A stretch of DNA of 64,000 nucleotides from Zarea fungicola (taxonomy: Eukaryota; Ascomycota; Sordariomycetes; Hypocreales; Cordycipitaceae), in contig FWCC01000141.1 in assembly GCA_900169235.1 (NCBI GenBank), positions 194,284 to 258,283 of the forward strand, in the 5' to 3' direction. This document shows, piece after piece, positions 23,333 to 60,997 of this stretch. The position numbers were made by a program, and so were the translations under genes. Positions within the stretch are counted from its first letter, which is position 1. Each line of letters opens with the position of its first letter. The notes beneath the pieces were generated by a model, which was not told where the DNA came from, did not search any database, and saw only the letters and a program-made list of their open reading frames with translations.

Positions 23333-24373
23333 CTACTGAGCTGGTTGTGTATCCCAGGTGAATTCCTGGCTCTTATGCTGTGGCTCTACATAGCCGCCAG
23401 GTACATACCGACCCGAAGCCTTAATATGCCAGGCATAGATCCCCTGCAGCGCGACTCCAAGATCCTCAACGTAATCCTCAGCCGTGCTCTGCCATTCTCC
23501 AAAGTCGGGTAGATTCTTCTGCAAAACGACAAACTCTGCAAGAGCATCATCGTGAATTTCCATTGACTTCTTATAGGCACTAATCAAGTCCAGTCCCATC
23601 TCCGACTGGATGGTCATGACAAGGTTAATGACATCTCCCTTGCGGGCGAGCTCCTTGGGCAGCGAGACAAAGTCGTTGTGATAGCCAACCAATGTTCCGA
23701 GTAGATCGTGCAGGCGCAGAATGATGGGGTGGCGAAGGACTGTGAGAGGGAGCTGGCGGTAGTTTTTCTGCATGCACAGGTACTTGGCAAAGGGGATTGA
23801 CCCGCTGCTCTGCTGGCGAATTACATTGTAAACGGGCAGCGGCGGCGGCTTGTCGGCGGATATATAGCGCTTCTCGTCAATGTACCCTGTCAAGAGCGCC
23901 ATGATGGAATCGATGAATTCCTCGTACAGGGGTTGTGGCATTTTGCATGCCATTGCATCCTGTCGCAGCAGCCAGACTTGGTGGTAGAATCCCGTTTCTG
24001 GCTCTTGCTGATCCTCGCCGCTGAGCAGCGCCTGGGTTTTTGATCTGTACACATTGACCTCATTGTTGCTGCTGTGGTCTAGGTAGTCATCAATGATGGC
24101 AAAAAAAGCAGAGAAACGGGAAATGGGCCGAAGCTCCTCAATCGTCATGGATGGATACGCGCGTGCCGCAATATCACCAAACCGGTGTCGTTTATGTGCC
24201 TCCCGTGCCTTGATTGATTCAAAGGGACAATCTGCATCAATCCATTGATCGCATTCTGCAGCCAGATCGTCAATCAGAGGGTTTGCCAGATCAGCAAACG
24301 GGTACTGAGGGCGTGGCAAGTCCTTGAGCTCTGCATAGAGCGTAGCTTCAATATCGGCAGCCATTATGCCCAT
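23333..24373 (-). CDS. Class I terpene synthase (cyclase)
   Basis: An intronless 346-residue frame, the normal size of microbial class I terpene cyclases. The metal-binding motifs are in place: aspartate-rich DDYLDH about residue 92, the NSE triad NDFVSLPKE about residue 237, and a C-terminal RY pair (GRYVPGG) that senses the diphosphate. It would ionise a prenyl diphosphate and cyclise it. It lies 1 kb from a GGPP-type prenyl synthase transcribed in the same direction, which favours a diterpene (C20) substrate; a sesquiterpene cannot be excluded. The start is ATG 24373, with a second Met three codons in. Together with the P450 and carbamoyltransferase to the right this marks a terpenoid biosynthetic cluster. 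Confidence 0.92.
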   Translation of the reverse strand: MGIMAADIEATLYAELKDLPRPQYPFADLANPLIDDLAAECDQWIDADCPFESIKAREAHKRHRFGDIAARAYPSMTIEELRPISRFSAFFAIIDDYLDHSSNNEVNVYRSKTQALLSGEDQQEPETGFYHQVWLLRQDAMACKMPQPLYEEFIDSIMALLTGYIDEKRYISADKPPPLPVYNVIRQQSSGSIPFAKYLCMQKNYRQLPLTVLRHPIILRLHDLLGTLVGYHNDFVSLPKELARKGDVINLVMTIQSEMGLDLISAYKKSMEIHDDALAEFVVLQKNLPDFGEWQSTAEDYVEDLGVALQGIYAWHIKASGRYVPGGYVEPQHKSQEFTWDTQPAQ

Positions 24374-25388
24374 CTCCGTTTGTTATCTAAGAATTCTGGT
24401 GCTTCGCTTGGCTGCACCAAGTGAGAGCAAGGTGAGTAAGGCGATGGAAGATGCTGTCGTGCAGAAGAGTTGGCAATGCCTTGACGGAATCCAGCTGCCG
24501 GCAATGCGAAATACAGAATACCTTGCCGGGGAAATAATGAATTACACTATTTCACTGCAATTGTGTTCAGTCTAGTTTTATTTATATTCCTCCATCCAGG
24601 TCCGGCTGTATTCGGGGGAGCCGTTGTGCCTGCCACTAAAATCTTACTGAACGATAACTCTCTCAGTGGAGCGGTGTAGTCCTTGCTCAAATTCAAAAAG
24701 CACTTACAAACACAGCCATCTGGCTCCAGCTCATCTACTACTAAGCGTATGCTGTTCGGGTGGAATGGACCGACGGAGTTTATGGAACCAATTTTCTACA
24801 GCCCTATAAAGTACCCCTGCCAAGAGAGATGCCGAAGACCCGCCTGCCGCCCGGGCTAGTTATAGTCTCTGTTGATCTTTTGACCCATGGTCGGCTTTTG
24901 CCGCCTCGAACCTAAACGGTCTGTTCGTAATTGTCAGACCAGCCCCTTTTGACAAAAATTGGCTCAGTTACTCATGGGTAATAGCCACGTGCATGGCGGA
25001 AAACGGCTAGGAGAAGTGGTTCTCTTGCCGCACACCGCCGAGCAGGGTCTCTGCTCCATAATCAAGGCCACGTCATGGTAAGATTATGACATTACTTGAT
25101 GAACAAGGGGAATTAGCTGCTCACAGAGCAGTAGTATGCTGGAATATCTTTGATTAATTCATGCTCTCAACGGCTGCAGGCAGCGTACTGGAAAATACGA
25201 TGCTCGACATTGCTCATGTCGCTCTTGAGTTCCTAGCTTACAGGCAAAGGTCATGAGTGGATGGATTAATGTTAACATGGCATTTATCTCGGCGTGTAAT
25301 TAATTAGATTATTTCTATACCAACTTGATCAGATACAACTACAACTAGTAGATGTAGGGCTCCTTCAACACTGAATCGTCATTGATGT
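24374..25388. other. Intergenic: terpene synthase promoter and 3' flank of prenyl synthase
   Basis: No coding frame supported. Should contain the promoter of the terpene synthase and binding sites for the cluster regulator. CGG triplets and CCG pairs occur, but I could not single out a site. Confidence 0.45.
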
Positions 25389-26390
25389 TTATAATGTCAG
25401 CTTATCCAACAAAATGTACAGCGGATTTTCCCTCCCATTACCGAAGCTGAGATTGTTTATTATTTCCCTTGCTCTATTGATTTGCACGTCAATAAAAGCA
25501 CGTGTGTACTCAAAGCTGCCGGTCCTCTCCATGCATTGAACCGCATATCTCTTTTGGTCAGGATCGGCGGTTTTCTGCCTTAGGATATTCATCAGGTCCA
25601 TGTTGGTCGGGTCCTGATGGATGCTATGTATGACGAGGTATGAGAACTTTCCCTCAGTAATATCCTCACAATAACCTTTTGTCTTTGTGTATTCTTCTGA
25701 ACAAAGATTTTGATAATCATCTCGGACTTGGAAGAGAACTCCAATGATATCGGCTAGGAGGAGAAGATCCGGAGATGTCGGCTGAGTAGATTGCGTTTGT
25801 AAGAGTTGGACGCCGAGCCTGAAAAGGCCGCCAGTCTTATGGCCAATCATTTCAAGATAGTCGGCCTCCGTCGGACAAATGAGCGAGTCTCGCCAGTACA
25901 AGTCCATAGCCTGCCCAAGGTGCAGCCTCATCATCTCGTTGACAAAGTGGTCTGTAGCTTCAGTGCTGTCCAGTTTTTGAAGCACCGTCATTGCTTTAAA
26001 ATAAAAGTAATTGGCGCTGTTAATCGTCTGGGGTACGCCATAGATGCTGTGTGCCACAGGCAACCCTCGGCGCAAAACGGAGTCATCTTCGATGTCGTCA
26101 ACTAGTAACGACGCGGTGTGAAGCATTTGGATGGAATTAGTGATAATTTGAAGGCTGGAAGCCGGCACACCCATCCAAGTGTTGAAGCCCTCGAGGACTT
26201 GCGAGCGCACACCTTTGCCCGGATGCTGTAGTAAATAGTTGAGCGGGCCGGCGACCACTGCCTCGCTTTTCTCCCTCCATCCAGGAGACGCAGTTTCCGA
26301 TCCAAGCCCTTCGTCTGTAAAAGAACCAGGCATTTCGATAATCAGCCGACTTTCCCCAGTCTGTGTTGAGAAAGGTTGATACAATGGCAA
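25389..26390 (-). CDS. Geranylgeranyl diphosphate synthase-type trans-prenyltransferase
   Basis: An intronless 333-residue frame of the trans-isoprenyl diphosphate synthase family. It has GKGVRSQVLEGFN for IPP binding, the first aspartate-rich motif DDIEDD preceded by SLLVDD, the HLGQAMDLYWRD segment, KTGGLFRLGV, and the second aspartate-rich motif in QVRDDYQN. The DDYQN form of the second motif is typical of fungal GGPP synthases. It would make GGPP from FPP and IPP for the neighbouring terpene cyclase. A cluster-located extra GGPPS besides the housekeeping one is common in fungal diterpenoid and indole-diterpene clusters. Chain length is inferred from motif context only. Confidence 0.9.
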   Translation of the reverse strand: MPLYQPFSTQTGESRLIIEMPGSFTDEGLGSETASPGWREKSEAVVAGPLNYLLQHPGKGVRSQVLEGFNTWMGVPASSLQIITNSIQMLHTASLLVDDIEDDSVLRRGLPVAHSIYGVPQTINSANYFYFKAMTVLQKLDSTEATDHFVNEMMRLHLGQAMDLYWRDSLICPTEADYLEMIGHKTGGLFRLGVQLLQTQSTQPTSPDLLLLADIIGVLFQVRDDYQNLCSEEYTKTKGYCEDITEGKFSYLVIHSIHQDPTNMDLMNILRQKTADPDQKRYAVQCMERTGSFEYTRAFIDVQINRAREIINNLSFGNGRENPLYILLDKLTL

Positions 26391-26753
26391 CTTTGACGTA
26401 GCTCAGTATCTTGGTCACCGGGATAAATTACAGCTTTATAATATTACATATTACTAGTGCTGACCAATAAATGGACAGCATTGCAAGTGGGGAGAAGTTT
26501 AGATATATGATATAATTGCAACTATCTAAACTGTACCAGTACATGCCACATTCTCTAAGCCAGCTTGAGGAGATTACCGTTCAGCGACTAATTGACCGTG
26601 GTAGGCAGGCTTCTGTTGATCAGTTTATATAACAGATATATTCTGGCCAATTATAATAACAAGAGTTTAGTCCATGTTTCAATTTTACGCTCAATCCTAT
26701 GGTCATTGGCTAAGATCGGACTGAATACTGATGCGGCAAAGTAGCGCGATGGT

Positions 26754-26850
26754 CTTTTCTTTTCTTTTCTTTTTTTTTTGTACAAAAAAGAAACTCTTAT
26801 CACTTTTCTTTCTTTCTCTCCTTCTTTCTTTCCTTCTCTCTTGCTATCTA
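26754..26850. repeat. Polypyrimidine (TTTTC/CTTT) low-complexity tract
   Basis: About 95 nt of almost pure C/T with TTTTC and CTTTCTTT units, interrupted near 26781 by GTACAAAAAAG. It lies 360 bp upstream of the GGPP synthase start. Pyrimidine tracts are frequent in fungal promoters; a role here is not shown. Confidence 0.6.
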
Positions 26851-27626
26851 ATCGAATCAGCCAACATCCTTAACGACCAACCAATCGGTGGCCATAGTTA
26901 GCTCACCGTGGACTCGGCAACTCCGGGTCAAGTCCGTGCGCTCCGTTGCAATAACGGGATCTATTGATTACGTCTCACCTCCGCTTTGGCTAAATATCTT
27001 ATTGATTGTCTTACACGGTGGAGAGGTGAAAATGGCGCACAGTAATAGGAGGCTTTGGTCAGGCCAGAGAAATTCTTGGCAAATCCAATACGTGTGCGTT
27101 TATATTGACACACCAGTCGGGTGGCGGATTACGGCCTGGGAGGCTTAGCCATCCATATTCGATATTTCATAGATCGGTAAGTGGGTAAACAGGTATTTAG
27201 CGCTGACTTAACTCAGAAGTGTAGAGCATTTGTCACACAGTGGCTATAGATTCGGATAGTAGCCGTTACGGCCCCCTCCCTCTGTTTCTAAATTTTATTT
27301 GTTGGTCATCTCCTTTCTTCGCTGACATGCAAAAATAACAAACAAAATGCATAAACAACACAATACAGCTTATTAACATAAAAGTAAACAATAACGGATT
27401 TCTGAAATTCTCCTTCCTATTTCAAGCATATTATGAAATGGGGTTCATGGTAGGGCTATGTTCATGCCTTGAGCTTATATATGTGGATTGTGTTATGTAT
27501 TGACTGTACTCTCCTCATCGTATGTATTGGTCCGGCTGTTCGGCATTTCCCTCTGTGGAAGCCAATGCAAGCCCTCACTGCTTTAAGGTGGGCGCTCCGG
27601 CAATGGGCCAAAATAACTCAATTGCT

Positions 27627-27718
27627 GGTCTGTGATCCTGACTATCCACAATTTGTCGTTTGAATGCTGTCTTTTCGAAAGGACAAGGGTGCTAGGTAAC
27701 CACTCGACCACAGAGACC
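27627..27718 (-). other. tRNA-like/pol III-like remnant
   Basis: On the minus strand a TGGTCGAGTGGTTA box resembles a tRNA A box. The ends GGTCTCTGTG and CACAGACC can pair with one bulge. No proper B box or anticodon arm is visible, so this is not called a tRNA. It could be a decayed tRNA or a SINE-like piece. Confidence 0.25.
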
Positions 27719-28448
27719 CAAAAAAGATCAAGCAATGCCAGACCCTAGTCGGGTACCCTTGGCATCCAATATATAGCTACGTTCTAGATCCCTGACACTT
27801 TTTTAACCCTGTTACAGTAGCCCCTACAATGATCGGCTCCAGCCACTGCCCGCCTAGACTGGTGCTCTGGTGGCTACTGATAACACTGCATTGTATCCAC
27901 TACGGAGCAGCTTCTCGAAGAATTGAGAGGCGGTACAGTAAAGAAATATGGATGATTCCGTCAATACAAATATGGATCGCGTCGTGAATATGAATGTGAC
28001 CAAGGCTACGGATATCCACCATACTTAGCTCGAAGCCTCGCGTCAGATTCTAACGCAACTTCGGTACTCAATTCTATTTAATACAATTCTCAGCCATTCG
28101 GCTACATTCCATTTGGGGTTTCGCGGGACTCTTAAATGACTCAACATAGACTACGTTTGATTGGGTACTTGCATATGAGCCGGTGGGGATGACCAATGCT
28201 GCTTATTTTAATCTTTGCCAAGCGTGTGGAAGCTGAAAGAAAGGTCGGGTTTTTTCATACATAAAAGCACTAGCAGGGATAGGGGTTTTTTCTCTCATTG
28301 TTCTGATTACGAAGTAGACGCAGTGCAAATGCTGCAGATTCTGCGTATGGTAATATATACGCAGCCACCTACACTCCGCCTATATGTTAGCTCAGGTTCG
28401 GAGCGTTGCCAATTCGCCGATTATTTACAGTAACAGCGCATTCAGGCC

Positions 28449-30333
28449 ATGGAATCCTTATATCGTACTGTCCCGTACAGCTGGGCTACGATGTTCAAGT
28501 CGGTAGGCGATGTAGAGCAAAGGCTTCAATTATATTTATGGACTGCTCTGGCCCTACTCACATCCTACTTGGCTTATTCATGGTTATACAATTTATACCT
28601 ACACCCACTGCACCGTTTCCCTGGTCCTAAACTGGCTGCAGCAAGCAGTTTATATGAATTTTGGTACGATGTCATTAAAGATGGCCAATACCTCTGGCAA
28701 ATCGAGAAGATGCATGAGAAATACGGTACGTGCGAAGACTGTGCCATTACTTAACGACGAGTTCTGTGAATGCAGCGCTGACATTTACCTCTCTAGGGCC
28801 AATCGTCCGCATTAACCCAAGGGAGTTGCACATCCGCGACTCACATTACTACAGCAACATTTACGCTGGAGGTGTTCGCAAGGTTGACAAGGACGCGGCC
28901 ATTGGCCAGGCACTTGGACTCCCAACTTCAATCGTCGCAACAATTGACCACCACCACCACAAGGCGCGTCGTGGCTATCTTAACCCCTACTTTTCCAAAC
29001 GTGCTGTCGTTTCTATGGAGTCCATGATCAATGAGCGCCTTGACAAACTATGCGAGCGCCTTGAAGCCTCCATGAAGAACAAGGAGCTGGTTATCCTCGA
29101 CTCCGTATTTTCAGCCCTGACAGCTGATATTATCACCTGCCGTTTTTATGGAGAGCACCATGACTATCTTAGTCTCCCTGACTACAAGATGGCGGTCAGT
29201 GAAGCTGTCCTCGGCGTCTTGTTTGGCTTTCACTTTGTGCGATTTGTTCCGAGTCTAGTTACCATCCTCAGAAAGCTCCCTATTCCCATCATTCGCTTGA
29301 TCTTCCCACCGGTTGCGGAGCTGCTGACATTCAAAGAAGAGGTAAGGCACACAATTCTTGCCTCTTTAGATGAAGCAACTGAAGACACGGCCAAGTCGGT
29401 CATTGTATCGGTACTCCTTAATCAAAACATTCCAAAAGCGGAGAGAGACATTGATCGTTTTCTGGATGAGGGCACTGCACTCCTCCTTGCCGGAACTGAG
29501 ACAACATCGAGAGCTCTAAGCGTTGGCATGTTTTACCTTTTAAACGATAAAACGCATTTGACGAAGCTCCGTGAAGAACTGAGTACCTTGCCATCTCGGC
29601 CAGGAAACGATTATCCAATGTCGCAGCTGGAGAGCCTTCCTTATCTTGTGAGTCACCCTGTATCATGTTTTACATCAACAAAATGACAAGACACCTGAAG
29701 TCTAATTTGTCGCAGACTGGAGTCGTGAATGAGAGCTTGCGCTTGTCGTTCGGATTTGCAGGCCTTTCCTCACGATTATCTACACAGGAATCGCTCCAAT
29801 ACGGCAGTTATGCTATCCCACCCGGAGTAAGCAGGTTCCTATCTATTGACAACTATTCAATTTGAACAGTCTTTTCTGACTTTGAATAGACTCCAGTTAG
29901 CCAGTCGGCATACTTTGTTCACACTGATCCCGAGATCTTCCCCGATCCTCACACATTCAACCCTGTTCGGTGGATTGAGGCGGCGAAAGCTGGGTTTCCC
30001 TTGAGCAATTTTCTCGTTAGCTTTAGCAAGGGCAGCAGAGCATGCATTGGTAATCAGTAAGCGGAATTTTTTTTAACCTTATCTTATGTCGGGAGAGGCC
30101 ATTTAACAGCAGCATGACCTAACTTCTCCTGCAGGGTGGCAACAACAGAGTTGTACATGACAATTGCAAGAGTTGTCCGCACATTTGAGATGAATCTTTG
30201 CGGAAGCACAGTAGAAGATGTCAGAATCCATTATATTCGTGTCATTGGTTTTCCAAAGAAAGCCAAGAATGCGGTAAATCCGCTCGGCGAAATCATGGTC
30301 AAAGTTACAGGCAGGGCTGGCCTCATAGCTTAG
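28449..30333 (+). CDS. Cytochrome P450 monooxygenase
   Basis: Five exons: 28449..28725, 28797..29647, 29716..29826, 29890..30056 and 30135..30333. All junctions are GT..AG and keep frame, giving 534 residues. An N-terminal membrane anchor ([17 protein letters not shown]) is followed by the [10 protein letters not shown] proline hinge. Key motifs are AGTETTS in the I helix (oxygen activation), NESLRL supplying the ExxR pair, PVRW in the meander, and the heme-binding [10 protein letters not shown] with the axial Cys. It is a class II microsomal P450 needing a CPR partner. Its place between the terpene genes and the carbamoyltransferase suggests it hydroxylates the terpene skeleton, giving the oxygen that can be carbamoylated. 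Subfamily not assigned. Confidence 0.93.
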
Positions 30334-30939
30334 ATTGGATCTACTGGGAGAGATGTAGAGGAAACTTGATTAATTTTTCTCCCACGTAGATGAGCTAGCC
30401 CGTTAATAGCTGTATCATTGTTAGAGGTCCCATTTCTTGAAATGGTTTTGAGTACTCATCCATAACTTTTGGGACCTCTAACTGTCGCTCCTGTGACCAA
30501 CACTTCAGTAGTTTCTCACCTCCCAGCACCCTTAAAAGTTTTGAATGGAAAATTGAAAATTAAGACACAGTGTTCTGGCGTCTATTAGCTTAGCTCTTCA
30601 GAAAAGTTATGTAATACAAATACAAATCAATCTATCATCCTTGCGGGAGACTATCATCATTGAAGCGCTCAACTTGCGCGTGAACTCCGCAGCTTTTTCC
30701 CAGTTAATAATGTACCATTCGTTAGCTCCATTTTAATTGATTTTTCAAGACAATTATTATGTGAGATTTTAGTGGCATATGCCATCGGCCCTGCCGGATG
30801 TACATATATGGCTCCTAATGCGCCGCAGAACATTTGTTCCTGTTTTGGCTGCTCTTGATCGGCACACCTCTTAACCCTTCTCTTTACTGGCCTGTTTGAT
30901 TTTGAACCCAGCCTCAGCTACCTCTCTCTGACTTATCGT
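30334..30939. other. Intergenic between P450 and carbamoyltransferase
   Basis: P450 3' flank and carbamoyltransferase promoter. Contains the inverted repeat listed separately. No coding frame supported. Confidence 0.5.
30420..30482. repeat. 13-bp perfect inverted repeat (stem-loop)
   Basis: GTTAGAGGTCCCA at 30420-30432 is matched exactly by its reverse complement at 30470-30482, with a 37-nt loop. It starts 87 bp after the P450 stop. It could be a 3'-end structure, a paired regulator site or a tiny MITE-like remnant. Confidence 0.7.
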
Positions 30940-33081
30940 ATGGCTGGACCGCGTAACCCGGCGTTTGCGCGCTGGGCCGGCCAGACTTGGCAACGCTTTG
31001 CAACGCGCCGCTATGCGAAAGCGGGCCTGTTCTCTGCCGATTCTCCCACCGGGATGAAGATAGTTGACGACATCAAGCAGCGAGTTCGCTCAGGCAAGAC
31101 TTGCTACATTGTCGGTTTAGGAGTAGCTGGGCACAACGCCGGTGCCGCGCTTTTGAAGGTTTCGCTGCTGGACGGCATCCAGCTCCTCTCCAACGATGAA
31201 GAAGAACGATTTAGCGGGGAGAAGCACTATAAGCATTATCCCAAGCACGCCATTAATGAGCTGCATCGCCGTCTACTTGCCCGCGGTGTACAGCCCTCTG
31301 AAGTGGCGGCCTGGGGGACAAGTTGGGACTACAGCAACCTGGAATCATTGTTCGTGAGGAGCTTCGCCGAAGAGTTTCCATATAATCTAAAGCTTTTAAA
31401 GAGCGACGATGCAATGGATCCGGCCGAACAATTCAAGGAAGCTCTTCAGGCGCCAAACAAGATCCGTGAGCAGCTTGGCCTCGATGTCACTCCGCAGCTG
31501 CTCATGTTTCCACACCACGAGAACCATGCCTCCTTTTCATATGCCGCCTCTCCATTCGCGAAGAATGGTCGACCGACCATGATCTCAGTCGTGGACGGGA
31601 CTGGGGATCGGGGATCCATCTCGTACTATCGAGGAGAGAACGGAAAGGTCACCGAGCTCTATTGCAACCAAAGTGTGTGCGACTCGCTTGGTTGGTTCTA
31701 CAGTGTCATCAGCTCGACACAAGGCGGCTGGACGCCGCTGAGCAGTGAGGGCCGCTATATGGGGGCGGTCGCTTGGGGGGACGACAACAGACTTACCAAT
31801 CCCTATTATCGACGTCTGCGAGACATCTTCCATTTCGGCGCCGATGGACAGGTTCAGCTGAATCGCCAGCTGGCGAATTGGCACATCGCTGGATGGCATG
31901 CTCCTTACACGCCGGCACTCGAGGCCATTCTCGGCAAACCCATCCCCCTCGAGCGAATGTGGAACCCCGATGCTGTCCTCGACATCAATTCCATCCAGCA
32001 TTCGGCCATCACCCGTGATCGCGTCGATCTCGCTGCTGCCACACAGCTTGTTTTTGAAGACGTCATATTCCATATCGTCGATTACCTGATTCGCAACAGT
32101 CGCAGTGATCAGCTTGTCATGTCGGGCGGGACTGCACTTAATGCGCTCGCTAATATGAGACTACTGGAACACTTCGATAACCAATGGTACAAGCGCAATC
32201 TAGGCATGGACACACAACTCAAGTTGTGGATTCCTCCTGTGACAGGCGATGCCGGTGTCACAATAGGGGCTGCGTACAGCGCTGCCATGCGAGCAGAGGT
32301 CCCCTGCGGTGACAACCTGAAGCAGGCCTCCTGGTGCGGAATTCCAGCTACAGTCGATGAGATTCAGGCTGCCTTAGACAAGGATCCAAAAATCGCCTTC
32401 CAGCGACTCGGTAACGTCAACCATGACGCTGATCGTCTGAGGGTCGCCGACCTCATGGCGTATACCCTTGAACGCGACGGCGTTCTCGGCCTGTACCAAG
32501 GCTCAGCTGAGACTGGTCCGCGTGCATTGGGACAGCGTTCCATCCTTGCCAATCCCTGCAACCCCGACACTAGGCAAATACTTAATGAGCGAGTAAAGTT
32601 TCGTGAAGCAATTCGTCCCCTGGCGCCGATGGTGACACGGGAGCATGCCGACCGGTTCTTTGAGCTGTCCGAGGGCGCGGCGGCCGATGACTACAACGCC
32701 TACCGCTACATGGTTCTTGCAGTAAAGGCACGTCGTTTGGCTCACGAAAAGATTCCCGCTGTTGTCCACAAGGACGGGACGTGTAGGGTTCAGATAGTTA
32801 CGTCTGAATCCAACCCGCTGGTCCACGACTATCTGCAGGCTATGGGCCGCCGGCTCGGAGCGGAAGTATCTGTGAACACGTCGCTGAATGTTGGCGGCCC
32901 AATTTGCCAAACTCCTGCGCAAGCACTGGCTGTTGTGAAGCGGGCGAAGGCGCTCACGGGGCTGATCCTAGTTGGCGGTGAAGGAGAGATGTTCCTCGCT
33001 TGGCATGCTGTGGACACCGATTTTAAAGATGGCGGTAAACGATTGCAGAAATTGGTATCCAGTCATGCCGCTGAGCTCTAG
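30940..33081 (+). CDS. NodU/CmcH-family O-carbamoyltransferase
   Basis: An intronless 713-residue frame. It transfers a carbamoyl group from carbamoyl phosphate, via carbamoyl-AMP, to a hydroxyl group, as in nodulation factor, tobramycin and cephamycin pathways. Visible family blocks are GVAGHNAGAALLK near residue 63, FPHHENHASFSYAASPF, VVDGTGDRGSISYY, LSSEGRYMGAVAWG, MSGGTALNALANMRL and PPVTGDAGVTIGAA. In the C-terminal half come GSAETGPRALGQRSILANP, REAIRPLAPMV and VNTSLNVGGPI. Both the N-terminal ASKHA-like and C-terminal YrdC-like halves appear complete. The N-terminus before the domain is Arg-rich and could be a targeting peptide (inference). The family is mainly bacterial; lack of introns and a rather GC-rich 5' end fit an ancient bacterial transfer. 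Its likely substrate is the P450-hydroxylated terpenoid. Confidence 0.93.
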   Translation: MAGPRNPAFARWAGQTWQRFATRRYAKAGLFSADSPTGMKIVDDIKQRVRSGKTCYIVGLGVAGHNAGAALLKVSLLDGIQLLSNDEEERFSGEKHYKHYPKHAINELHRRLLARGVQPSEVAAWGTSWDYSNLESLFVRSFAEEFPYNLKLLKSDDAMDPAEQFKEALQAPNKIREQLGLDVTPQLLMFPHHENHASFSYAASPFAKNGRPTMISVVDGTGDRGSISYYRGENGKVTELYCNQSVCDSLGWFYSVISSTQGGWTPLSSEGRYMGAVAWGDDNRLTNPYYRRLRDIFHFGADGQVQLNRQLANWHIAGWHAPYTPALEAILGKPIPLERMWNPDAVLDINSIQHSAITRDRVDLAAATQLVFEDVIFHIVDYLIRNSRSDQLVMSGGTALNALANMRLLEHFDNQWYKRNLGMDTQLKLWIPPVTGDAGVTIGAAYSAAMRAEVPCGDNLKQASWCGIPATVDEIQAALDKDPKIAFQRLGNVNHDADRLRVADLMAYTLERDGVLGLYQGSAETGPRALGQRSILANPCNPDTRQILNERVKFREAIRPLAPMVTREHADRFFELSEGAAADDYNAYRYMVLAVKARRLAHEKIPAVVHKDGTCRVQIVTSESNPLVHDYLQAMGRRLGAEVSVNTSLNVGGPICQTPAQALAVVKRAKALTGLILVGGEGEMFLAWHAVDTDFKDGGKRLQKLVSSHAAEL

Positions 33082-54619: not shown

Positions 54620-55745
54620 ATGAAGTGGCTCTCTCTCGCCGTAGTGCTGCTTGCTCGGCTCGGAACTGCGGCTCCAGCAGCATCAAGCGTCTATGTCCGC
54701 TTTGAGCTGATTAGGGAGTCTTCTGAAATATCGTTGACTATTGTCGACGCAGCTACCAAGAAAGCGCTTGGCAGGTCCTGCTCCGCCAAGCTTGACAGCG
54801 GAAAGTTCGCAAACTGGCCTGTTTCCATCAACCTGGATACCAGCGGACAAGGCAACATCACCTTGGGCACCAATACCCAGCCGATGGAATACAATCTGGA
54901 GCCAGCTGCTAGCGTATCCTGTGATAGCATCTCTGATGAGAAGGCAGTTTTCATTTCTTGTAAGGTTTCTGTGCCAGCAGGCGTAGATCTTACGCCTGCG
55001 GAGGATATTGAGACTAGTAAATGTCTCTCAGACGAACGTGCTTCTCTGGCCACGGTGGCGGATGCCATGGCCGCAGGAGGCAACGCCGACGGCCCCCCTA
55101 TTCATGCTCCCACTGGCAAGGTCGACGGCGCTGTAAACTCTACAGACATTGATATCAATGGCAAGAGGCAGACCAACCCATGCTCGCAGTGGACGCCAGA
55201 CGTGCGACGCATTGGCGACGGTGACCCATGGCAGCACCACCTCTATACGCAATTGAGTGTATGTGAATCCCCCCGCAAAGGAAACCCCTACCCTTCTCGT
55301 CCTCATACCGGTCATTAAAAGCTTAAAACGAATAAATGTACTAACACGCTCTTAGGAACCCACCACCTGCGATGGCAGGAACCCCTGCTCAGCCACCTTC
55401 ACCGAAAGCAGGGGCTGGTCCTTTGGCGCCAACATCAACGGCGCGGCGAAGTGGATCAGCGGCGGCTTCTCCGTGGCGTATAGCGTGACCTCGGGCAATT
55501 CCTACTCATGCAACGGCGGTGGAAGGGACACCGTCTGCGTTTGGTACGACCAGGCATTTACCGAATACAAGGTCGTCTCCGGCTCACGCAATGGGTGCGG
55601 GACGTTCTCGCCTAGCTTTAACACTAAGATCTCATCGCCTAATCAGAATAACCGCGGCGGAAAGATGTACTGTGTTTCAGGTGGACACTGTCGTGGCAAG
55701 AGTGATAGATACTGGCAGCTCTACACCCGCCGTGGCGGCCCCTAG
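54620..55745 (+). CDS. Secreted prepro-protein with Kex2-type site and Cys-rich C-terminal domain
   Basis: Two exons, 54620..55258 and 55356..55745, with a 97-nt intron containing TACTAAC. Product 342 residues. A signal peptide (SLAVVLLARLGTAAPA) precedes a ~165-residue beta-rich region with three Cys, then a likely Kex2 processing site INGKR before QTNPCSQW. The C-terminal ~160 residues contain eight Cys, starting CDGRNPCS, and a Gly/Ser/aromatic-rich core (RGWSFGANINGAAKWISGGF), with SYSCNGGGRDTVCVW and YCVSGGHC later. The architecture (pro-region plus dibasic site plus compact disulfide domain) is that of a maturing secreted effector or antimicrobial protein. I do not recognise the family, so activity is not claimed. 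Confidence 0.78.
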
Positions 55746-57940
55746 ATTTTTAGGCTCCCGTCGCAATGGTTCGGAGTGGTCTTTATTTCAGTTTGGGTCA
55801 TATACTCTCCCATCTAGGGTTGTAGATGGCTAAAAAACTAAGGATTGATTAAACCGTTTCGCTTGCCCTTAGCCTTCAGTTACCATCATCAGCAGTGTCT
55901 ACTGTTGTTACGACGTGGCAGTGGTTTATTTTTGTGGGAAACTTCCACTTTAACTTCTATTCTTATTTTATCTAAATATTCATAAATGATACATTTTTGC
56001 AACGCCGGCTCCGATTATTAGTCAGAGTTAAAGATGCCAACACATGCTAGACTACTGCTCGTCTCATATGCTATAGTACAAGATAGTTTCATGAGCAGAA
56101 GGGGATTATGATAGCAGCTTTACATGCAATAGGTATTATTTGATGAAAATGAGGAAATAATCTGGAAACCCAAAGTTTGGGGGCGGCACATGTAGGTGTT
56201 GATCACTGATACTGCTGTACTGGCTCACATCAGATCAAATATGGGGTTGAAAACTGATTTCTAGGCAAGTCTCTTGAACGTAGCAAAGCTTCTAGTATTT
56301 AATATGTAATTTTCGCTTCCTCGCGAGAGGAGGCGTACGAGGGAGAGGTCTGATTGACCAGAATCGCTGTATTACCCTACTTTTCAACACCACCACTTGT
56401 CACTGCTGGTCTACATCAAGAGGCTTACGCTGTACCTGCTATCACGTGCACACGCGCCGTTCCTGTATTTAGCCAGATTCCTACAGGCTCCCAATTGTAG
56501 ATCTTTGAGCTACGTCTTGTAAATAGAGCCTGCCCTGCCTGAACAGTGCCTATCCGTAGCAATAGATCTAACTCAACCTACCTGGATGCTCTCCGTCCTA
56601 CCTGCCGTCCTCTGACCCTGACACCACTTTTAGTAATAATTAACGCCTAGCCTAGCACATAATAAGAATTAATATTTATATAAATAGACCAAAACGAGGA
56701 ATTCCTTACAAAAACCTTAATAACCTATACCTAATACTAATTAGTACTATTAGGTATAAACTTAGTAAGGTAACTAAAAGAGATAAGAATTTTTCTTATT
56801 TTTTACTATAAGCTTATTATAGAAAAGTTTTCATACTAACTATTATACTAGGGTAGGAATACTACGTCTATTAACCTTAACCAAGTTAAGGTCATTATTA
56901 ATGAGAACAGCTAGGTACCAGGTAGGCTAGTAACTATACTGCCAACACACATAACTTCTAAATTTGTGATTTTAGGTAGGAGGGGTCCTAGGATGACTTA
57001 TATAAAGTGGATTGAGGCGTTATTTCTTTTCTATATGAGTTGATACTTAGATCAGTGATGAGGCACTCCATTTTGAACACTTGTTTTATATTTTCCTTGT
57101 TGCTTAGACGACCGTGATTTGACACATGCCTTGCTGGTCTACCTATGCTCCGCGCTATTTCTCGATACCTATTGCCTTGTGCACACATTGGCAGCACAAT
57201 GCCGATCATTCTGTAGTTCTTTGCTTTGGCAAGACGAACCAGAGGCGCGTCGGCAAACAAAAGATCAGCCAAAAAAATGATCGCCAAACAAAAAGAGGCA
57301 ATGTCTCTCGTGTTTCTGCTCACACAGAGCTGGTGGAAACGAGTCAACAACTTCATAACCAACTGCTCGGTTTTAGTGGCGATTATTTGCATCTTTTCCG
57401 AGAAATAATATAGAAGCATTAGGTGCACGTTTACACTAAAAGGTAAAAGTGCATTAATAGAATTTGGAGGTCCTTTACAGCAAAACTAAAAGAGCCTTTA
57501 ACCTAAAATAAATAAATTTTAGTAAATAATATTTAATTGGCCAAGATGCAAGCAAGTATTTATCTTTATTTTATCATTGTGCGCGAAATCACATTCAGGT
57601 CTACTATCTCTTTAAATTCGTGAACGCTACAAAGCTAAAAAGCGGTGTTTAAATGTAGATGGTTTATATCTGTGGTCGTATGTATTAGAAGTCGATCTAA
57701 ATCACTTGATATCCGACACGGTGCGTGATATCGGGTTACATGGTATGTCGTAGTGCGACAACTCGTTTAGGGTTTGGAGTTTCCAATTTTATATCTAAAT
57801 GCCATTGATACTCGCGATTGAAACCCGCCAGCGATCGGCCGAGCTTAAACTCCAGTAGAGAACTCCATACAACGATCGAGGCTTCCCACACCGCGTGATC
57901 CTCCACCTCAGCCCTGCTAGTCGGACGCGAATCGTTCGAG
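55746..57940. other. 2.2-kb gene-poor, partly AT-rich region
   Basis: The 56.64-56.92 kb part is very AT-rich with small palindromes, e.g. CCTTAAC-CAA-GTTAAGG at 56875-56891, and CCTAATA..TATTAGG near 56730. It looks like a RIP-decayed repeat. Open frames at 57.0-57.4 kb have no family motif. The right end is the 3' flank of the micro-exon gene. Confidence 0.45.
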
Positions 57941-59001
57941 TTACTGTAACAAGCCATCCATATCAACAATGTTATTCATAGCAGCTATGGCAGTCAAATA
58001 CTTACACACTATAATTATTAGCTACGTTAGCATACCACGGCGAGAGATTTGTTTCGACACAGGGCAAAGCACTTACCTCCTAGAGTCACAGGAATATATT
58101 AGCAATTTACAAGTTTGTCAAACATCTCCTATCAAGAAATAAATAGATAGATACTTACGCACTATAATAGTGAGTTGTGTTAGTACCCTTGAATCAATCG
58201 ACTGCTAAAGGTTGCGGTCTATACTTACAGTCTGCGGATATTGCATATGTAAATATTACGATTATATAGCTTTTATCGGTAATAAAAGGTCTAATACTTA
58301 CGCACTATAAGTACTATTGTATTAGCGACATTTCTAGTCTAATAATATTGGCCTTAATAGGAAAAATACTTACACACTGTATAACATTATATTAGGTCGT
58401 CAAATACAGGTGAGAGTTGTCATATATAATGGGAGAGGTACGTACACCAAACTAGTTGGTTTGTTAGCGACCCAGTGCTTAATTAACGTCGCAGTATAAT
58501 TGAAACTTACGCGAGGCTGAGCAGATGATTGATATTAGCATACCCAAAGTCATGGCCGGATAGACATATGGATAGCTTACATTCTAAAATGCCGAAATAT
58601 ATAAATGCATTGCCAGTGGGAGCCGCGTCGTAACAGATGGCAGAAAAACTTACACACTGTCAAAAAAAACCCATTCATGTATAAGCTTCTATATCCTATT
58701 AATCATAGTCAAGTACAACCTACGTCCTGTTTGTTTCACTTAGCAGAGTATTCATACAGATGACAGGATTCTTACTCACACACTGTTGCAGTGGATATTA
58801 GCTAATCAAGCATCACGCCAATTCTTGCAATAAATTAAGTACAAACCATCTAATTAGCAACACAGTTAAAACCTCGTAAATAGCGAGCACAAATCAGTAA
58901 CCAGTACTTACGCGAGCTTCTAGAGGATCAAACCACTTGTTCACCGGGCTGGCTGCAACCACAGCCACGAGAACGGTCATGATCATTATTTCAAACTTCA
59001 T
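57941..59001 (-). CDS. Micro-exon gene encoding a small secreted cysteine-rich peptide precursor
   Basis: Exon 1 (58912..59001, 30 codons) encodes a signal peptide (IMIMTVLVAVVAASP) and a short spacer ending DPLEAR. It is followed by thirteen 3- or 6-nt exons, each AG|codon|GT: 58847-58849 M, 58780-58782 C, 58724-58726 D, 58654-58656 C, 58581-58583 N, 58511-58516 PR, 58446-58451 FG, 58374-58376 C, 58302-58304 C, 58229-58231 T, 58159-58161 C, 58077-58079 E, 58006-58008 C. The final exon starts with TAA at 57941-57943. The fourteen introns are 53-79 nt, all phase 0. Nine of thirteen micro-exon donors are exact GTAAGT or GTGAGT; most introns carry CTAAC/CTAAT 10-30 nt before AG. The 45-residue product ends in a 15-residue tail with Cys pattern CxCx5CCxCxC. 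No family recognised. The first micro-exon (M, donor GTTTGT) is the weakest. Without RNA data the splicing is inferred, but the regularity is hard to explain by chance. Confidence 0.75.
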
Positions 59002-60739: not shown

Positions 60740-60997
60740 ATGCAATTCTCTCTCGTCAACATGGCCACTACCCTCCTTTGGCTCTCTGCTACAGTTGAGG
60801 CGTCCAAGTGCTTTTGTAATGGAGGCACTGCCATCTCGAAGCAGGCTTGTGATAGAATTGGAAAGGACTACGGTTGTTTTGGGTGTGGCTATGCCGGATG
60901 CTGCGTTTTTCCAGGCCCCGATCATGATGCATTCGTCAATGCGTGCAATGACTTGGGTACCGGCTTCCAAGGATGCGGCGAATGTGCCGAGTGTTGA
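60740..60997 (+). CDS. Small secreted cysteine-rich protein (85 aa, 11 Cys)
   Basis: Intronless 85-residue frame with a signal peptide (MATTLLWLSATVEA, cleavage before SKCF). The mature ~64 residues have 11 Cys: CFC, C, C-x2-C, CC, C, C-x2-C-x2-C. Core motif FGCGYAGCCVFPG and a C-terminal CGECAEC. The spacing resembles fungal secreted CFEM- or Avr-type small proteins only in general density; I cannot assign a family. An odd Cys count suggests one free thiol or dimer. The start could be either of two Met codons (1 or 8). An antisense frame over the same DNA is a shadow. Candidate effector. Confidence 0.75.
   Translation: MQFSLVNMATTLLWLSATVEASKCFCNGGTAISKQACDRIGKDYGCFGCGYAGCCVFPGPDHDAFVNACNDLGTGFQGCGECAEC

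Follow-up and report, generated by a model that had tools for sequence, protein, structure and literature searches.

The region described here lies in a 64,000-nucleotide stretch of the Zarea fungicola genome, the whole of which is called the window below. On its minus strand, read directly and parsed by script, we found an exon 1, 13 micro-exons and a stop codon, with a structured RNA element on the 3' side. In the following list the micro-exons come from the script parse, exon 1 from the sequence together with hydropathy and inspection by eye, the stop from the sequence, and the RNA element from the covariation of its 14 genomic copies.

58912..59001, minus strand: exon 1, with ATG, predicted signal peptide and short predicted pro-region MKFEIMIMTVLVAVVAASPVNKWFDPLEAR, and a phase-0 GTAAGT donor at its end
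58847..58849, minus strand: micro-exon 1, ATG (Met)
58780..58782, minus strand: micro-exon 2, TGT (Cys)
58724..58726, minus strand: micro-exon 3, GAC (Asp)
58654..58656, minus strand: micro-exon 4, TGT (Cys)
58581..58583, minus strand: micro-exon 5, AAT (Asn)
58511..58516, minus strand: micro-exon 6, CCTCGC (Pro-Arg)
58446..58451, minus strand: micro-exon 7, TTTGGT (Phe-Gly)
58374..58376, minus strand: micro-exon 8, TGT (Cys)
58302..58304, minus strand: micro-exon 9, TGC (Cys)
58229..58231, minus strand: micro-exon 10, ACT (Thr)
58159..58161, minus strand: micro-exon 11, TGC (Cys)
58077..58079, minus strand: micro-exon 12, GAG (Glu)
58006..58008, minus strand: micro-exon 13, TGT (Cys)
57941..57943, minus strand: stop TAA immediately behind the last acceptor; with another possible acceptor (exon from 57913) the end is Gly-stop
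57827..57880, minus strand: 3' structured RNA element, an outer 6-bp stem (CGATCG/CGATCG) and an inner hairpin, in the probable 3' UTR

The first-pass annotation of this DNA had described a signal-peptide exon, thirteen units of one or two codons and a stop directly after the last acceptor, and all of these are present in the sequence. Eleven of the 13 micro-exons measure 3 nt and two measure 6 nt. Spelled in order as M-C-D-C-N-PR-FG-C-C-T-C-E-C, they give the conceptual tail MCDCNPRFGCCTCEC, a Cys-rich mature part with 6 Cys in 15 residues; six of the thirteen are single Cys codons, a count that had been given correctly. The N-terminus of exon 1 is hydrophobic (KD 3.12), and its signal peptide is predicted by eye and from hydropathy. 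Reading on into intron 1 yields VSTGY and a stop, that is, five codons and then the end. Introns 1 to 13 span 53-79 nt. The last intron is either 62 nt long, with its AG before the TAA, or 92 nt, with a further CAG that leads to Gly-stop, so the protein ends at once with either acceptor. An ordinary intron of 68 nt, read by eye in a gene on C421 that we take to be beta-tubulin-like, indicates that the ladder introns are normal in size.

Two descriptions of the splice sites had to be narrowed. Recurring GTAAGT-type donors had been reported, and the ladder of donors is indeed there, but the exact GTAAGT occurs at 9/14 of them, the others being GTTTGT, GTGAGT, GTAGGT, GTAAGC and GTACGT, of which two (GTTTGT and GTAGGT) are weak. 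Likewise, CTAAY-type sites had been placed before most acceptors; a CTRAY branch-like site is found in the last 45 nt of 8/14 introns (counting the last in its 92-nt form) but is missing from this stretch in 6/14. The introns of the window gene are mutually unlike, with 1 of 91 pairs exceeding the null maximum, and by this comparison of intron pairs its ladder units are not tandem repeats of one another.

A search of the 43-Mb assembly showed that the same build recurs. The genome has at least three further genes of this kind (on C30, C335 and C124), and therefore at least four in the set, a lower bound that rests on two patterns, with three contigs matched only by a GTATGT variant left out. 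In the full models of C30, C335 and C124, frame and absence of stops were imposed. The C30 gene (L027, plus strand) begins with MKSFYLVIAALASLAIAVPAADSLLG, then DRAIAP, and continues with mostly one-codon exons that give CGG-KAC-PAGTRCCTNCGGDYVCRRPG-QA-CIC; it has 30 introns and 29 internal exons (26 of 3 nt and one each of 6, 9 and 18 nt). The C335 gene (L051, C335:14000-23000, minus strand) begins with MKYFVAIVLLLIGACMAIPIPEVNAEEG, followed by 47 exons, all of 3 nt, that give IITDLPIGVLHGILKGIAIGVYTGFHDVLGDFATVLGNSLPFFPKRP, and then CAT TAA; its 48 introns range from 49 to 83 nt, one of them with a GC donor. On C124 (L029, minus strand), a signal-peptide-like exon MLLLPALAAVAGAT is followed by about five one-codon exons and then GLLEVPPVVDQE-stop, with three exons firm and the later introns less certain. 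A stop within one codon of the last acceptor is common to the window gene, C30 and C335. When the stop rule was removed from the chain model described below, the window gene kept identical exons, none of them a stop, and stop-free chains were again obtained in C30 (28 exons, the KAC exon being passed over) and C335 (31 of the 47). A fifth place, on C421 (L052), carries a run of five one-codon exons with a score of 64. As a full ladder gene it was rejected: it has no in-frame exon 1, there is a stop in the next predicted exon, and 2/6 exons fall out of frame when unconstrained. We left it as a partial or decayed ladder. The ladder places on C115, C30 and C421 lie about 2-27 kb from a contig end, perhaps in subtelomeric or repeat-adjoining DNA.

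The peptides of the four ladder genes differ completely. In DNA searches for paralogues, the window gene, C30 and C335 each matched only themselves. Against Pfam-A, no family was found for the window and C30 peptides, and the C335 peptide gave one sub-threshold, unrelated match; NACHT or ankyrin domains were found by Pfam in none of the three. In the PDB, the C30 peptide had three matches at E 0.17 or worse and the other two had none. A protein database search with the C30 peptide gave no relatives, and for the micro-exon-encoded parts none were found with either the C30 or the C335 peptide.

Could such ladders arise by chance, or as a compositional artefact of AT-rich intergenic DNA? Raw pattern counts would allow it: GTAAGT-N44..74-AG-NNN-GTAAGT occurs 25 times genome-wide against 24 in the reversed control, and its GTATGT variant 6 times against 10, so neither is in excess. 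The matches nevertheless cluster (6 within 481 nt on C30, 5 in the window gene, 2 on C421), and it is this clustering that constitutes the signal. We used a chain model with introns of 42-110 nt and exons that are multiples of 3 up to 9 nt, its donor, branch and acceptor weights being set by hand after the ladders had been seen. The window ladder, with its 14 introns, scored 114.5; in 300 dinucleotide shuffles no score exceeded 14.3 and no chain had more than three introns. The best chain elsewhere, over 291,968 strand-bases from the remaining window sequence and from non-ladder loci, of which several had been chosen because they matched a ladder pattern, scored 18.2, with two introns. With the multiple-of-3 rule dropped, internal exons were still multiples of 3 in 13/13 cases in the window gene, 27/28 in C30, 32/32 in the part of C335 covered, 3/3 in C124 and 4/6 in C421. 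A further argument against chance is that the matches build ladders with as many as 48 introns, and that a signal-peptide-like exon stands at the head of four of these. With the ladder scoring far beyond shuffles and background, we reject this explanation, to which we give practically no credence.

The codons themselves point the same way. Among one-codon exons, Cys codons make up 6/11 in the window gene (binomial p 4.5e-6), 7/26 in C30 (p 1.7e-4) and 0/47 in C335, the reference being 22 of 460 AG-NNN-GT codons counted on both strands of the whole window, with those of the ladder among them. Since Cys is enriched in two genes and absent from the third, the codons reflect the individual peptide and not a splice-site consensus. 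No stop codon occurs among the 84 one-codon exons of these three genes (p 0.04 if not imposed). The hydrophobic C335 peptide was also considered as an amphipathic helix but was not more amphipathic than shuffles of itself (p 0.21), and this candidate was dropped.

How such arrays grow is best seen in C335. That the introns are unlike each other, as the first-pass annotation had it, stands for the window gene but fails in C335, where 24/528 intron pairs exceed the null maximum; the figure for C30 is 1/406. A 145-bp unit comprising two introns and two codons is repeated four times in C335 (TRF, 86% matches). Between copies 1 and 2 and between copies 3 and 4, the introns differ at 22/207 sites and the one-codon exons at 9/12 (Fisher p 1.2e-6), the B intron of copies 3 and 4 being left out of the intron count because the fourth copy has diverged and changed in length. 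Counted as variable columns, the contrast is 5/6 in exons versus 24/139 in introns (p 0.0012), and over all pairings of the four copies it is 23/36 in exons, 40/408 in intron A and 24/213 in the first three B introns. The codons of the unit are TTG/AAT/TTG/TTT and GGG/TCG/CCG/TTT, with one codon pair identical (TTG, TTG). Because the two intron types alternate strictly, tandem duplication with later codon change is the favoured route; codon-plus-intron units would then have multiplied and their codons diverged, suggesting a secreted peptide that changes fast. Arrays could instead have grown by the copying of introns into pre-existing codon boundaries, with introner- or stwintron-like gain as the model. 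The codons flanked by near-identical introns in C335 differ about as much as unrelated codons would (9/12; 23/36), a level that copying between older codons could also give, but this route does not readily account for two intron types alternating strictly over four 145-bp units, nor for the introns of the window gene and of C30 being unrelated to each other. We consider it a plausible minority option.

The C335 locus is kept elsewhere, in another assembly. Its peptide matches one database protein, P0121, of 59 aa, on a 3,791-base contig (source label lgn). P0121 is a C335-type exon 1 (27/28 residues identical) read on through intron 1 past the first micro-exon, and its end LTFITKDCIFTNRCPIY matches the frame of the corresponding place in C335, LTFITTDCIFMSRCPIYR. 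The middle of intron 1 has diverged between the two, and the start of the intron and the surroundings of the first micro-exon are kept. If the acceptor is identical, intron 1 measures 61 nt in P0121 and 60 nt in C335; this length difference is not divisible by 3, which fits an intron.

On the 3' side of the window-gene stop lies a 55-nt element of which the genome has 14 copies. Allowing up to three mismatches, a 29-base pattern located 13 places against 0 in the control; the fourteenth is the C30 copy, whose apical loop contains an insert. Apart from 57827-57880 (minus strand), the copies are at L027, L058, L059 and L061-L070. In the 14-copy alignment, 90.7% of cells are standard pairs under a 13-pair, three-helix structure (0/500 shuffles). 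Two-sided changes occur in 16 cells, a number reached by 0/500 shuffles, and in six pairs, reached by 13/500; the number of further pair types was not above shuffles (370/500). Most changes are carried by the outer stem, of which the 29-base pattern holds only the one innermost base. Slid structures were at most 42.3% paired, a control that is tilted by the drawing of the structure from the first copies found. Single-sequence folding was no better than shuffles in the five copies tested, and Rfam gave no match on the element strand and one chance-level match on the other.

Upstream of the element, a convincing signal-peptide start is found at 5/14 places (the window gene, C30, C94, C270 and C191). 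The simple filter used, which covered about 1.5 kb upstream for most copies, gave weaker candidate starts at two more places, one of them lying across the element, and nothing at the other seven. No ladder was found in the 8 kb around each of the first six further copies or within the 3 kb examined at the six found later, and the element was not found in the stretches examined of C335, C421 and C124. With copies that have no ladder nearby, the element does not mark ladder genes specifically, and its use as a tag for them was rejected. We read it as a putative 3'-UTR RNA of small-secreted-protein genes, a role that it presumably also plays in the window gene. Being shared, it offers a second handle for finding such genes.

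Other features of the neighbourhood can be mentioned here. Two ORFs with signal-peptide-like starts by eye, at 60740-60997 and 54620-55318 (both plus strand), flank the ladder gene; the former is Cys-rich, and neither has a Pfam family. Further away, 23333-33081 looks like a terpenoid cluster, with the following putative members.

23333-24373, minus strand: terpene synthase
25389-26390, minus strand: polyprenyl synthetase
28730-29686, plus strand: P450 piece
30940-33081, plus strand: carbamoyltransferase, its nearest named relative 69% identical, in Zasmidium cellare

Matches to the carbamoyltransferase are patchy across fungi and bacteria.

Based on these results, the window gene very probably is spliceosomal and encodes a tiny, secreted, Cys-rich peptide whose mature part comes from thirteen phase-0 micro-exons. 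The ladder, its frame and its recurrence in the genome are directly observed, as are the duplications and the base-pair covariation of the element; with the Cys enrichment, the first three fit the earlier interpretation as a signal-peptide exon plus 13 micro-exons better than the other models considered. In the mechanism that we propose, exon 1 would encode a signal peptide followed by a short pro-region, whose last residue, Arg, suggests cleavage after LEAR, just before the micro-exon-encoded peptide. The whole mature peptide MCDCNPRFGCCTCEC would thus be supplied by one- or two-codon exons set between ordinary short fungal introns. In fungi, introns of this size are recognised through intron definition, and a 3-nt exon then need not be recognised as an exon. 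As each intron has its own donor and acceptor (with a CTRAY site in 8/14), the introns can be taken out singly by this route; each removal would leave a clean donor for the next. All exons being multiples of 3, any skipped micro-exon would keep the frame. The gene would presumably be transcribed and spliced in this way, and its peptide secreted, perhaps to act at the interface with other organisms.

Two other uses of the ladder have to be weighed against this reading. Spliceosomes easily skip 3-nt exons, and the mRNA might largely join exon 1 to the last exon, the ladder being a decaying or neutral intron array. That it encodes merely 15 residues, and that the C421 ladder looks decayed, would fit; on the other hand, the sites form ladders of 14, 30 and 48 introns, Cys codons are strongly over-represented in two genes and missing from the third, and the splice sites of C335 persist while its codons change. 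We find wholesale skipping quite improbable. The ladder could also serve mainly for splicing diversity, with transcripts that skip different micro-exons yielding a library of related short peptides. The exons are phase-0 multiples of 3 in the three long models, where this was imposed, and in 72/73 cases once the rule was dropped; the micro-exons of Tuber NACHT genes are alternatively spliced, according to the accessible parts of the sources (PMC3689799, PMC4986451, PMC10197012). Against this, strong sites at most introns would favour full inclusion, and in Cys-rich peptides the loss of one Cys would break the pairing. Diversity as the main purpose therefore seems unlikely to us, without being far-fetched. 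A more ambitious possibility, which we put forward as speculation, is a gene class whose secreted peptide is written one codon per exon, with codons gained, lost or swapped through duplication of single codon-plus-intron units and skipped in frame by splicing, so that every such gene would give a fast-changing combinatorial library under diversifying selection.

Under the favoured reading of a fully spliced micro-exon gene, several consequences follow. In C335, splicing of 47 successive 3-nt exons and 48 introns as modelled would put donor-acceptor pairing by the spliceosome to a severe test, with many equivalent sites lying close together, and would make this gene a natural setting in which to study intron definition and the order in which introns are removed. 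Because 3-nt exons are frequently thrown out by gene finders and RNA-seq aligners, ladder genes are probably missing from fungal secretome and effector catalogues; their signature, a phase-0 intron chain after a signal-peptide exon, can be used to find them. In C335, near-identical introns beside differing codons make selection on single codons measurable against neighbouring intron sites.

With ordinary fungal small secreted Cys-rich proteins, the window gene shares small size and Cys-rich content, and its hydrophobic N-terminus is a candidate signal peptide. C94, C270 and C191 have larger first exons ahead of the same 3' element, and their Cys-rich part is not split codon-wise where it was read. 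Micro-exon genes are a known kind. Iotti et al. are said to have described, in 2012, Tuber melanosporum nank genes with tens of codon-sized micro-exons. The first-pass statement that no such fungal gene had been described was therefore too strong, as alternatively spliced arrays of codon-sized micro-exons are reported in the NACHT-ankyrin (nank) genes of this species, in the parts of the papers available to us (PMC3689799, PMC4986451, PMC10197012). A fungal secreted-peptide gene made of consecutive one-codon exons was not found among the matches listed from open-access PMC titles and the starts of abstracts; a complete secreted peptide encoded codon by codon, in runs of as many as 47 such exons with short introns, seems to have no counterpart there.

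The likeness to Tuber is that codon-sized (3-bp) micro-exons occur in runs within an ascomycete gene family (11/13 here, 47/47 in C335). As far as the accessible text of those papers goes, the Tuber micro-exons diversify part of a large intracellular receptor, whereas those of the ladder genes are predicted to supply the whole of a tiny mature secreted peptide, and the NACHT and ankyrin domains of nank have no equivalent found by Pfam in the ladder-gene peptides. Another very short exon in a filamentous ascomycete is known from Trichoderma virens Xlr2; the 2024 abstract states that functional micro-exons had not previously been described in filamentous fungi, and what it presents is one regulated micro-exon in a transcription factor rather than a ladder (PMC11121469). 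The aphid bicycle genes are likewise fast-evolving putative effectors recognised by gene structure and not by sequence, but they are animal genes, and a run of one-codon exons is not stated in the part of that source available (PMC9168663). In organisation alone, the ladder genes can be likened to the micro-exon genes of Schistosoma mansoni, for which the portion of the source at hand gives secreted, variable proteins, exons of 3-81 bp and introns of up to 5 kbp (PMC10526429). Both have secreted proteins (predicted here) and short exons down to 3 bp, and the ladder genes show the same plan of a signal-peptide first exon, assigned by eye and hydropathy, followed by short exons that are multiples of 3; they differ in that their exons are nearly all exactly one codon and their introns mostly 49-92 nt.
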